In this document: one piece after another, positions 32,901 to 36,845 of the stretch | How positions within the stretch are numbered: position 1 is the first letter of the stretch | Layout: each line of letters opens with the position of its first letter | DNA from: Salminus brasiliensis | Lineage: Eukaryota; Chordata; Actinopteri; Characiformes; Bryconidae | Reading direction: 5' to 3' | DNA length: 64,000 nucleotides | Assembly: GCF_030463535.1 (NCBI RefSeq) | Contig: NC_132879.1 | Span: 48,526,594-48,590,593, forward strand | Notes under the pieces: generated by a model | Told to the model about the DNA's origin: nothing | Database searches by the model: none | The model's input: the letters and a program-made list of their open reading frames with translations, nothing else | Program-made: the position numbers and the translations under genes

Positions 32901-35900
32901 TTGGGAGGAGGTGTTTACACCTCGCTTTTCTTTGAGGCAAGTGACATCTGAACGTGATCCGATGTAAACAGGCTAGTAAATAACCACCACTTTTGTTTGT
33001 ATTCAGTTGCAATAGAATTTGCATTACATGAAGGTTTTAAATAATTTAAACATTAGGCCATCTGGAATTTGAAGAAACTTGGTTCAGTAAGTTAAGCTAC
33101 TCTTAAATGGAAAAGCTCAAATTCTGAAATCAGAAAAGACAGAAATTAAAAAATTACATTCCTAAATATCACAAGAAAAGCCTTCGTTTTACAGTCTGAA
33201 TTACTCCTCCGGAAGCTACAGTCTTCTGACTGGCCTGTGGTAGTAGATGGTACTGCTACACAAACAATACTAAAGGTAACAGAGTCTTTACAAACATAAA
33301 ATCCACACCTGGTTCACAGTAATAGGACTATTTCAGTGGTGTGTCACATACTCAGTGTGGCCTCAATACTCTGTAGTGATTTGTCCTCCGGCTCAAAACA
33401 GTTCCTTCGAGCCGGATTTGAACCAGCGACCTAAGGATGTCCATATTGAACCTCTACAGTCCTCCGCTCTACCAACTGAGCTATCGAAGGAGACATGGCA
33501 GCTAGCTCTACTTGTAAAATTTTTGATCATAGACCATTGTGATCGGTTGCAGTAAAACCTGTAATAGATAAAAGTTTTAAATCATTTAAAATGAGGTTAT
33601 TTGGAATTTGAAGAAAGTTGGTTTCGGTAGGTTAAGCTAGTCTTAAAGCGCAAAGTTCGGCCTAAATAAGACGTTGATAGAAAACCGAATATATTCCTAC
33701 AATCTATAACTATTAATCAGACCCTTGTTCCTGGGCGTTACCCTTAATATACAGGCTGAGTTACTCCTCCTGAAGCTACAGTCTTCTGACTGGCCTGTGG
33801 TAGTAGATGGTACTGCTACACAAACAATACTAAAGGTAACAGAGTCTTTACAAACATAAAATCCACACCTGGTTCACAGTAATAGGACTATTTCAGTGGT
33901 GTGTCACATACTCAGTGTGGCCTCAATACTCTGTAGTGTTTTGTCCTCCGGCTCAAAACAGTTCCTTCGAGCCGGATTTGAACCAGCGACCTAAGGATGT
34001 CCATATTGAACCTCTACAGTCCTCCGCTCTACCAACTGAGCTATCGAAGGCTTGGCAAGAATGTTTTTATGAGCCGGTGTGTCCCTTTAGACTCGCTGCA
34101 TGTGGAAAAATAAGACGCATTTTTGCTTCTATTAGTAAACTGACACAGAGAAGCTCAATATAACGGGAGCAGAATTGGGTTTTGTTGGTATGCTGTTCTT
34201 CTAAATTTGTGCTCTCTAGCTAAACATGCTGCAGTGCAGGTATTACTTGGCTGTGGAACATGTGGTCTATTAAAGGACTTTTTTTTCTATTTAACAAAAC
34301 CCAGTGCGTTTAACTCGTCTTCTGAGGCCATTTATTTTATTGACCAATAAATGTTAAAAAAGAGCTTCCTTCGAGCCGGATTTGAACCAGCGACCTAAGG
34401 ATACCTGTGTACAACCTCTACAGTCCTCCGCTCTACCAACTGAGCTATCGAAGGAGACACGGCAACCAGCTTTATTTGTACAGTTTTTGATCATAGACCA
34501 TTGTGATCGGTAGCAGTAAAACCTGTAATAGATAAACGTTTTAAATCATTTAAAATAATTTAAACATTAGGCCATCTGGAATTTGAAGAAACCTGGTTCG
34601 GTAAGTTAAGCTACTTTTAAATGGAAAAGCTCAAATTCTGAAGACAGAAATTTAAAAATTACATTCCTAAATATCACAAGAAAAGCCCTCGTTTTTCAGG
34701 CTGAATTAGTCCTCCAGAAGCTACAGTCTTCTGACTGGCCGGTGGTAGTAGATGGTACTGCTACACAAACAATACTAAGGGTAACAGAGTCTTTACAGAG
34801 TACTGCAGCCTATCTCAGCTGTGGTGATGAACTGTTTCCACACAGAGGTTCGGAAATGTTTGAACTGATAAGCCAAAACTTTTGAAACAGCACTCTTTCA
34901 CAGAAGCGTCTGTTATATTATATATTATACACAAAACTGTGTATTCCATGCAATTTTATTGTAAATTTAGCAGAAAGTCCATGGAAACAAAGTAATGATT
35001 TCTTTTCTTTTTTTTTTTTGGTTGGAACAGCGCTAAAAATGAAAATTTATTTGAATGAAAATGTTCAATAATTTTACCAAATAAGACGTTGATAGAAAAC
35101 CGAATATATTCCTACAATCTATAACTATTAATCAGACCCTTGTTCCTGGGCGTTACCCTTAATATACAGGCTGAGTTACTCCTCCTGAAGCTACAGTCTT
35201 CTGACTGGCCTGTGGTAGTAGATGGTACTGCTACACAAACAATACTAAAGGTAACAGAGTCTTTACAAACATAAAATCCACACCTGGTTCACAGTAATAG
35301 GACTATTTCAGTGGTGTGTCACATACTCAGTGTGGCCTCAATACTCTGTAGTGTTTTGTCCTCCGGCTCAAAACAGTTCCTTCGAGCCGGATTTGAACCA
35401 GCGACCTAAGGATGTCCATATTGAACCTCTACAGTCCTCCGCTCTACCAACTGAGCTATCGAAGGAGACACAGCAACCAGCTCTAATTGTACAGTTTTTG
35501 ATCATAGACCATTGTGATCGGTTGCAGTAAAACCTGTAATAGATAAAAGTTTTAAATCATTTAAAATGAGGTTATTTGGAATTTGAAGAAAGTTGGTTTC
35601 GGTAGGTTAAGCTAGTCTTAAAGCGCAAAGTTCGGCCTAAATAAGACGTTGATAGAAAACCGAATATATTCCTACAATCTATAACTATTAATCAGACCCT
35701 TGTTCCTGGGCGTTACCCTTAATATACAGGCTGAGTTACTCCTCCTGAAGCTACAGTCTTCTGACTGGCCTGTGGTAGTAGATGGTACCGCTACACAAAC
35801 AATACTAAAGGTAACAGAGTCTTTACAAACATAAAATCCACACCTGGTTCACAGTAATAGGACTATTTCAGTGGTGTGTCACATACTCAGTGTGGCCTCA

Positions 35901-36845
35901 ATACTCTGTAGTGTTTTGTCCTCCAGCTCAAAACAGTTCCTTCGAGCCGGATTTGAACCAGCGACCTAAGGATGTCCATATTGAACCTCTACAGTCCTCC
36001 GCTCTACCAACTGAGCTATCGAAGGCTTGGCAAGAATGTTTTTATGAGCCGGTGTGTCCCTTTAGACTCGCTGCATGTGGAAAAATAAGACGCATTTTTG
36101 CTTCTATTAATAAACTGACACAGAGAAGCTCAATATAACGGGAGCAGAATTGGGTTTTGTTGGTATGCTGTTCTTCTAAATTTGTGCTCTCTAGCTAAAC
36201 ATGCTGCAGTGCAGGTATTACTTGATTGTGGAACATGTGGTCTATTAAAGGACAAGGCTTTTTTCTATTTAACAAAACCCAGTGCGTTTAACTCGTCTTC
36301 TGAGGCCATATTAACATTTTTGGCCAATAAAAAAATTGTTTCCTTCGAGCCGGATTCGAACCAGCGACCTAAGGATGCCTGTGTACAACCTCTACAGTCC
36401 TCCGCTCTACCAACTGAGCTATCGAAGGAGACATGACGACTGTCTCTACTTGTACGCTTTTCATCGTGTTTCAGGTCATGTTACTGTGTCAAACTAACTT
36501 ACTAACTTACCAGTCCGCCTTCTTTAAGCAGTCGATTTTAGCTCCTCTGTCAATGAGGTACCGAACACACCGCTCATGGCTCATGGAGGCAGCCTCGTGT
36601 AGCGCTCTCTTGTAATCACTGTTGTACAGCTCGATGTCCATCCCCACATCCTCCACCAAATACCTCAGGATGTCGGCGTGCCCGTGCCTGGCTGCATAGT
36701 GCAATAGAGTATCTCCCGATTTCCCAAAATGTGCCTGTATCGACTGCTTAATTAGGAGCTTTTCCTCTATCTGCTGTCTGAGCATACTCAGATCTCCGTC
36801 CTGCGTTAACCTGATTAGGGGCTTGAATGTGTTTTCCTCGTCCAT
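29999..36845 (-). CDS. ankrd16: Ankyrin repeat domain-containing protein 16
   Basis: Seven coding exons: 36511-36845, 32362-32582, 32127-32169, 30956-31064, 30698-30859, 30426-30504, 29999-30162 (1113 nt, 370 residues; human 361). Splice sites are GT-AG with continuous frame. Diagnostic stretches are [90 protein letters not shown] and [20 protein letters not shown], giving about nine ankyrin repeats. In mammals ANKRD16 binds alanyl-tRNA synthetase and captures misactivated serine on lysines, preventing mistranslation; the same role here is inference. The start is the ATG at 36845 ([10 protein letters not shown]); the in-frame TTG nine bases further upstream is not needed. Intron 1 (about 3.9 kb) carries six tRNA-Tyr genes on the same strand, and the intron between exons 3 and 4 carries a Tc1 relic. 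Confidence 0.95.
30872..30891. repeat. (CA)n microsatellite
   Basis: Short CA run in the intron just upstream (minus sense) of the ankrd16 exon at 30698-30859. Confidence 0.85.
31069..31096. repeat. (TAA)n microsatellite
   Basis: Trinucleotide run immediately beside the acceptor of the ankrd16 exon 30956-31064, so on the minus strand a TTA run sits in the polypyrimidine-tract position. Confidence 0.85.
31105..32085 (-). pseudogene. Degenerate Tc1/mariner transposon, near full length
   Basis: On the minus strand this runs from the start of a familiar fish Tc1-like element (GGTCAGTGGAGAATGGCCTGAC near its 5' side) through the DDE transposase region to ..CATGGACCAGAATCGTAGGG and GGCAAAGGGAGTCCC at its 3' side. 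Text such as CCAGTAGGATAATGCATCG corresponds to the conserved block near the second catalytic Asp. Multiple indels and stops remove any open frame. Inserted in the ankrd16 intron between exons 3 and 4. Confidence 0.7.
32815..32975. mobile_element. MITE with AGCCTGTTTACAYC termini
   Basis: Starts AGCCTGTTTACACCTGG and ends CCGATGTAAACAGGCTAG, an inverted terminal repeat of about 14 bp, with a body typical of short non-autonomous fish elements. It lies in ankrd16 intron 1, beside the tRNA array. Confidence 0.55.
33403..33490 (-). tRNA. tRNA-Tyr (GTA), intron-containing, copy 1
   Basis: The minus strand starts CCTTCGATAGCTCAGTTGG (acceptor arm plus A box), has anticodon loop CTGTAGA, B box GGTTCAAATCC and a 3' arm CTCGAAGG pairing with the 5' end, discriminator A. 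A 15-nt intron (39-53 of this line, i.e. 33439-33453) sits one base 3' of the anticodon, the canonical place. Mature length 73 nt. A Pol III terminator TTTT follows 5 nt downstream (33395-33398). Confidence 0.97.
33963..34050 (-). tRNA. tRNA-Tyr (GTA), intron-containing, copy 2
   Basis: Identical in sequence to copy 1 including the 15-nt intron, with the same TTTT terminator. Starts 560 bp above copy 1. Confidence 0.97.
34367..34454 (-). tRNA. tRNA-Tyr (GTA), intron-containing, copy 3
   Basis: Mature part matches copies 1 and 2; the intron differs (AGGTTGTACACAGGT on the minus strand) and the 3' flank is different, with a TTTTTT terminator. 404 bp above copy 2. Confidence 0.97.
35378..35465 (-). 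tRNA. tRNA-Tyr (GTA), intron-containing, copy 4
   Basis: Identical to copy 1 with the same intron; lies 1975 bp above copy 1, as part of a duplicated three-gene block. Confidence 0.97.
35938..36025 (-). tRNA. tRNA-Tyr (GTA), intron-containing, copy 5
   Basis: Identical to copy 2; lies exactly 1975 bp above it, with the same downstream flank (CTTGGCAAGAATG..). Confidence 0.97.
36341..36428 (-). tRNA. tRNA-Tyr (GTA), intron-containing, copy 6
   Basis: Counterpart of copy 3 (1974 bp above it), sharing its type of intron and flank, but the B box reads GGTTCGAATCC, the commoner vertebrate form. It lies about 80 bp downstream of the ankrd16 exon 1 donor at 36510. Confidence 0.97.

Follow-up and report, generated by a model that had tools for sequence, protein, structure and literature searches.

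Six tRNA-Tyr genes in tandem within the first intron of a presumed ankrd16 gene of Salminus brasiliensis

Why six tRNA-Tyr genes should lie in tandem within one intron of a protein-coding gene, and whether they are genes at all, is the question raised by a 64,000-nucleotide (nt) stretch of the Salminus brasiliensis genome (contig NC_132879.1, positions 48,526,594 to 48,590,593; hereafter the window). The intron is the first of a gene that we take to be ankrd16, a name carried over from the initial annotation of this DNA; our own searches confirm ankyrin repeats only. Judging from the sequence, we consider it probable that the six are functional nuclear tRNA-Tyr genes and that their small array spread in tandem from a founder, the copy beside exon 1 (copy 6 in Table 1), in the downstream direction.

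Across the whole window, cmscan against Rfam at the gathering threshold returned six matches and nothing else, all of them tRNAs on the minus strand, with cloverleaf scores of 60.3-60.4 bits in every copy against a gathering score of 29. When introns were permitted, ARAGORN called each copy a tRNA-Tyr(gta) gene of 88 bp with a 15-nt intron after position 37; run without introns, it took copies 3 and 6 for Leu(tag), a reading that was discarded. The mature 73-mer is identical in copies 1-5 and differs in copy 6 at a single T-loop base (G for A, at position 57), and all five CpGs are kept in all six. The intron reads AGGTTCAATATGGAC in copies 1, 2, 4 and 5, AGGTTGTACACAGGT in copy 3 and AGGTTGTACACAGGC in copy 6. 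After every gene comes a run of T residues, T4 or longer, that is a candidate terminator for RNA polymerase III (Pol III). The initial annotation had described six 88-bp tRNA-Tyr(GTA) genes on the strand of the host gene, with nearly identical mature parts, two types of intron (copies 1, 2, 4 and 5 versus 3 and 6) and a terminator apiece, and this description holds in each respect.

Table 1. Features of the ankrd16 cluster and of the two larger tRNA-Tyr loci. Coordinates are those of the window unless a contig is given.
Feature	Location	Strand	Remarks
tRNA-Tyr(GTA) copy 1	33403-33490	minus	intron type 1, A57, T4 run
tRNA-Tyr(GTA) copy 2	33963-34050	minus	intron type 1, A57, T4 run
tRNA-Tyr(GTA) copy 3	34367-34454	minus	intron type 2, A57, T6 run
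tRNA-Tyr(GTA) copy 4	35378-35465	minus	intron type 1, A57, T4 run
tRNA-Tyr(GTA) copy 5	35938-36025	minus	intron type 1, A57, T4 run
tRNA-Tyr(GTA) copy 6 (edge copy)	36341-36428	minus	intron type 2, G57, T7 run
ankrd16 exon 1	36511-36845	minus	ATG at 36845; donor GT at 36510
ankrd16 intron 1	32583-36510	minus	3,928 bp; GT at 36510, AG before 32582; holds all six tRNA genes
Unit A (copies 1-3)	33190-34454		aligned to unit B
Unit B (copies 4-6)	35165-36428		aligned to unit A
Relic: truncated unit without tRNA	34641-34797		95% identical to 33136-33292 (copy 1 downstream flank)
Filler between triplets, 281 bp	34798-35078		no match found elsewhere in array or genome
Diverged upstream-type flank	33035-33136		94% identical to 34549-34650; no tRNA found alongside
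Giant tRNA-Tyr/Glu(CTC) array	C3:49148843-49537423	Tyr plus, Glu minus	Tyr matches reach 49.537 Mb
Second tRNA-Tyr cluster	C5:29928553-29965704	reverse	at least 31 cores

The manner in which the copies differ bears on whether they are functional. Between copies 2 and 3, seven of the 15 intron positions and none of the 73 exon positions differ (P = 1e-6), and between copies 2 and 6 there are six intron differences and one exon difference (P = 6e-5); copies 3 and 6, with one difference of each kind, are uninformative. Since the differences are concentrated in the intron, the copies look like selected genes. It is possible that they are instead pseudogenes or functionless tRNA-derived repeats, tRNA-like repeats being common in fish and damaged tRNA-Tyr copies being frequent in the giant array listed in Table 1. 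However, not only do the differences gather in the intron, but the mature sequence, the T runs and the position of the intron are all intact, and the single stretch of spacer that was searched (34455-35377) matched the genome at the ankrd16 locus only, in a search that skips very common words. We therefore regard decay or repeat origin as very unlikely. As functional genes, the copies would each be read by Pol III from an internal promoter of their own and end at their own T run, the tRNA-splicing endonuclease TSEN would cut out the 15-nt intron, and the cluster would supply Tyr-tRNA for translation.

The introns themselves hold a recognisable arrangement. In all six copies, across the three introns, C32 can pair with the intron base G(-3), which would leave three bulged nucleotides at the 3' splice site. 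In Drosophila, such a C-G proximal pair is reported in all 16 intron-containing tRNAs, together with a 3-nt bulge and a distance of 6 nt to the 5' splice site (PMC6614914), and the ankrd16 introns fit this scheme of pair, bulge and 6-nt spacing. The same G(-3) is found in the introns of tRNA-Tyr genes elsewhere in the genome, namely in the consensus of the C3 array and in 164 of 166 of its copies, in the single genes on contigs C1, C4 and C10 and in the edge copy of the C5 cluster. Three observations nevertheless speak against a bulge-helix of this kind: the minimum-energy fold of the pre-tRNA is a different one (-30.4 to -32.0 versus -27.0 to -27.8 kcal/mol), when introns are shuffled, each type by itself, the pairs beyond position -3 arise in 1-5% of cases, and the second pair of the helix is broken in the C1 and C5 introns.

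The placement in intron 1, on the strand of the host, had also been proposed at the outset and is confirmed by the junction of the first two exons: exon 2 begins at 32582, and the reading frame is continuous across the GT-AG intron. Later host exons have splice-like borders, as judged by eye. Pfam assigns ankyrin repeats to the host protein (Ank_2, 1.2e-44), and a PDB sequence search with it gave general ankyrin-repeat proteins only, among the 60 of 433 matches listed. Exon 1 together with its upstream region (36511-37300) has a CpG observed-to-expected ratio of 0.88 versus 0.40 for the window. It is possible that the ankrd16 promoter or its transcription controls the tRNA genes, or that excision from the ankrd16 pre-mRNA releases the tRNAs, as six genes lie in sense in one intron, the first of them beginning 82 nt from the exon-1 donor. 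In C. elegans an intronic tRNA depends on the promoter of its host, excision from the pre-mRNA is deemed possible, and intronic tRNA pairings are conserved among Caenorhabditis species (PMC4999229). However, each gene of the cluster has a full tRNA body and a T run of its own, as do tRNA-Tyr genes at other loci with respect to T runs, and the share of C. elegans tRNAs that is intronic (44% of 609) is not different from chance (PMC4999229). Such coupling to the host is in our judgement distinctly unlikely. The ankrd16 intron is probably no functional partner but an open and permissive place near a promoter rich in CpG.

A second kind of link to the host had been noted, and taken for a probable coincidence, in the initial annotation, namely that between ANKRD16 and the alanyl-tRNA synthetase AlaRS. 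Chance is most likely indeed, because tRNA-Tyr genes also reside at other loci (on C1, C3, C4, C5 and C10 in our genome search, in which C2 carries the ankrd16 cluster) and because ANKRD16 acts on AlaRS in a tRNA-independent manner (PMC7373986). We reject a special link between ANKRD16 and tRNA; a literature search found no paper joining tRNA-Tyr with ANKRD16.

How, then, did the array come about? Start-to-start steps of 560, 404, 1011, 560 and 403 bp separate the copies, and corresponding copies of the two triplets (units A and B) are offset by 1975, 1975 and 1974 bp, as in the spacing of 560 and 404 bp and the offset of about 1975 bp first reported. Units A and B can be aligned over 1,259 columns, of which 28 are mismatched, and a further 11 gap columns fall in one spacer; genes 1 and 4 and genes 2 and 5 have no mismatch in 176 positions. 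The two rounds of duplication first invoked to explain the array do not suffice on their own, since they leave unexplained both a mosaic of flanks and a relic without a tRNA. Over 387 bp, copy 4 with its downstream flank is indistinguishable from copy 2. Copy 1, by contrast, departs from copies 2 and 4 at 37 of 54 sites to the left of 33190 and at three of 103 to the right. On its upstream side, copy 4 is close to copy 1 (seven of 210 positions differ) and far from copy 3 (41 of 199). Copy 6 has its downstream spacer in common with copy 3 (13 of 310 differ). Upstream, its comparison with copies 1, 3 and 4 shows 10-12 differences in the nearest 35 positions and 34 in the 45 beyond. The relic differs from the flank of copy 1 at two of 54 and six of 103 sites. 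A clean doubling of one triplet is ruled out by this mosaic and by the relic, which therefore point to several duplications, with sequence exchanged at the genes or close by, and to one or more losses. Unequal recombination could have swapped the flanks at or near the tRNA genes as the array grew downstream of copy 6, the likely founder next to exon 1.

The high similarity of the units might also be taken to mean that unit B falsely duplicates unit A in the assembly, an error that the initial annotation had itself envisaged. This is exceedingly unlikely. An artefact of this sort would account neither for the mismatches and gap columns between the units nor for the downstream arm of copy 4, which is that of copy 2 and not that of copy 1. 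Furthermore, relic and filler lie between the units, copy 6 has a different upstream flank, and the assembly, which is the genome searched throughout, comprises 1.07 Gb in 103 contigs.

The ankrd16 cluster is one of several tRNA-Tyr loci. An exact search with the Tyr core gave 306 places, 272 forward and 34 reverse; among the matches listed, the forward cores are all on C3. Restriction to cores with a base other than T at the second intron position leaves 34, every one of them reverse: one each on C1, C4 and C10, six on C2 and 25 on C5. Besides ankrd16, tRNA-Tyr genes are present at at least five places, as single cores on C1, C4 and C10, as the C5 cluster and as the C3 array. In the latter, ARAGORN found 167 Tyr genes, all plus, and 162 Glu(ctc) genes, all minus, within 200 kb (49.13-49.33 Mb), and 96 of the 166 Tyr-to-Tyr steps measure 870-890 bp, about 880 bp being the commonest. 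The consensus mature Tyr sequence of this array is that of ankrd16 copies 1-5; its intron is a different one of 14 nt, GTATTAAAATGGCC.

Such a genome, with a large tandem family and few dispersed genes, recalls a dual system in which the C3 array (and the C5 cluster) would be oocyte-specific or maternal, or else largely silent, with the single genes and the ankrd16 cluster always on in somatic cells, as with the Xenopus Tyr tRNA genes. The wear of the array is in line with this scenario. Only 48 of its 167 Tyr copies keep the consensus mature sequence; in sets of 166, from which one copy with a 15-nt intron was dropped, a stem pair is broken in 58, and all five CpGs survive in 68, as compared to six of six at ankrd16, although the Fisher P of 0.006 for this CpG comparison takes recent duplicates as independent. 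In zebrafish, late-rising isodecoders are scattered, early ones lie in repeats and constant ones occur in both settings (PMC11417395), and big clusters are near-completely CpG methylated (PMC11574265). However, ankrd16 copies 1-5 make the mature tRNA of the array, and a clean split by mature sequence would group them with it. Moreover, the array exons may still be under some constraint. Among the 164 rows with alignable flanks, exons (2.06% of sites) differ as often as the intron (1.57%) and the two flanks (2.41% and 1.17%). Once CpG sites are left out (166 rows), the exon rate drops to 0.86%, about half of the 1.5-1.8% seen in intron and flanks; if every distinct change is counted a single time, however, exons (38 at 63 sites) are level with the intron (eight at 14) and lie below the flanks (42 at 58 and 74 at 60). 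Constraint on the array exons is at most weak. We hold a dual system of this kind to be possible, if somewhat doubtful. In the T stem of the array, C62A and G63T occur together in 31 of 166 copies, a damaged subtype grown common.

The single base by which copy 6 differs from its neighbours sets the cluster in a wider context. The exact 3' half with G57 exists at five places: on C1, C4 and C10, in ankrd16 copy 6 and in one C5 gene. In the single cores on C1, C4 and C10 and in the C5 edge copy, both exon halves equal those of copy 6, the 5' half being matched at every position; the introns are other, 13-16 nt long, and at least four T residues in a row come soon after each gene. A comparison of downstream flanks gave a single 18-nt match, in a T-rich stretch (E 0.008). 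At C5, the total of at least 31 is made up of 25 cores and 29 matches to a pattern (intron end plus 3' half), 23 being common to both; the 29 copies typed by this pattern comprise 28 with A57 and one with G57, and two further cores fall outside the pattern and thus outside this count. An intron found here is AGGCTGCAGCTGAA, and the C1-type intron also occurs, C1 and C5 sharing an intron family; C1 flanks had no match among the C5 flanks read. The sole typed G57 copy has the highest coordinate of the C5 cluster and is thus first in the direction of transcription. The ankrd16 cluster has the same order, with copy 6 transcription-first and G57 and the other five A57. On C3, A57 is present in 165 of 167 copies, the remaining two not being matched by the motif.

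A similar asymmetry between edge and inner copies is thus seen in two clusters whose introns differ; at ankrd16, copy 6 keeps the G57 of the genome's single Tyr cores and copies 1-5 carry the A57 of the C5 and C3 arrays. A57 being the CpG-to-CpA transition of G57, CpG methylation and subsequent homogenisation are the probable history of the clustered copies. The spread of A57 in clusters fits such a course; repeated mutation or selection for A57 is possible as well. One may go further and propose that in the tandem tRNA-Tyr arrays of this genome the transcription-first copy keeps the G57 of single genes as intact downstream copies turn to A57 by CpG decay and homogenisation, that the array form is a stage-specific tRNA, for example a maternal one, and that ankrd16 is a young, bridging array. 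This extension is tentative and, in our view, rather unlikely to hold.

Several findings set limits to this edge pattern. In the 2.8 kb of C5 that were read, five Tyr-like starts accompany the edge gene: three are genes called by ARAGORN, each with A57, and two are damaged copies with G57, in which the 3' half is incomplete, so that at C5 G57 is not confined to the edge. Nor are the edge copies wholly set apart, since they retain some upstream similarity near the gene. The 150-nt upstream flank of the C5 edge gene had no match to the other C5 flanks read at E 1e-3, with a short likeness by eye. Downstream, its flank matches those of the damaged pair at 91% over 88 nt and those of two intact genes at 74-75% over 80 nt, but not that of its nearest neighbour. 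In addition, a CpG transition from G57 to A57 can recur, and a shared A57 is no proof of common descent. The edge pattern comes from two clusters only and was noticed after the fact. Because of the damaged inner G57 copies and the upstream similarity of the edge copies, we lowered our confidence both in the wider edge proposal and in the growth of a functional ankrd16 array from copy 6, the latter of which we still consider probable.

The ankrd16 cluster is of a known kind, as clustered and intronic tRNA genes have already been described. Clustered tRNA genes (tDNAs), pseudogenes included, make up 65% of the total in zebrafish and 87% in stickleback (PMC2888827). Like the homogeneous tDNA clusters of teleosts, which hold a single isoacceptor, have gaps below 1,000 nt and are suspected to arise by local duplication (PMC2888827), the ankrd16 genes belong to one isoacceptor and are separated by gaps of 472, 316, 923, 472 and 315 nt; unlike those clusters, the ankrd16 array lies wholly inside one protein-gene intron, and its edge and inner copies encode two isodecoders. 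Dual gene families for tRNA have been described (as cited in PMC3565088). The large array and few dispersed Tyr genes seen here are a candidate for such a system, although it is the array's mature sequence that copies 1-5 carry. In the Ser-Tyr-Tyr (SYY) tDNA cluster of Arabidopsis, clustered and dispersed tDNA-Tyr are also distinguished by their introns, and damaged copies are more frequent in the cluster (13 of 54) than among dispersed genes (one of 16) (PMC12308677); this is a plant, and a split of edge and inner isodecoders is not described in the accessible part of that work. The C. elegans tRNAs under host promoters also lie within protein-gene introns (PMC4999229), whereas here six are in tandem in one intron. 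The accessible parts of the works cited make no mention of an edge/inner isodecoder split; no search was aimed at the split by name, and we do not claim that it is unpublished.

Elsewhere in the window, on the minus strand, frames at 8350-8733 and 15562-15990 resemble, by eye, ankyrin-repeat exons of what we presume to be two ASB-like genes, and frames at 59824-62537 resemble what we take, likewise by eye, to be a piccolo-type PDZ domain. ARAGORN also reported a 68-nt tRNA-Leu(caa) at 6590-6657 (minus) that is absent at the Rfam gathering score and is probably due to chance or derived from a repeat.

In this one genome, the tRNA genes for a single amino acid range from solitary copies through a six-gene cluster and a mid-size array to a giant array. 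Selective, stage-specific expression of tRNAs still awaits clarification (PMC11417395). Most of the Tyr loci carry an intron of their own, a natural barcode (with C1 and C5 sharing a family), and the mature tRNA comes in two forms told apart by base 57. Reads of pre-tRNAs or of introns could show which loci are used in eggs and which in somatic cells, and perhaps whether an intron near an active promoter keeps a small cluster of tRNA genes working.

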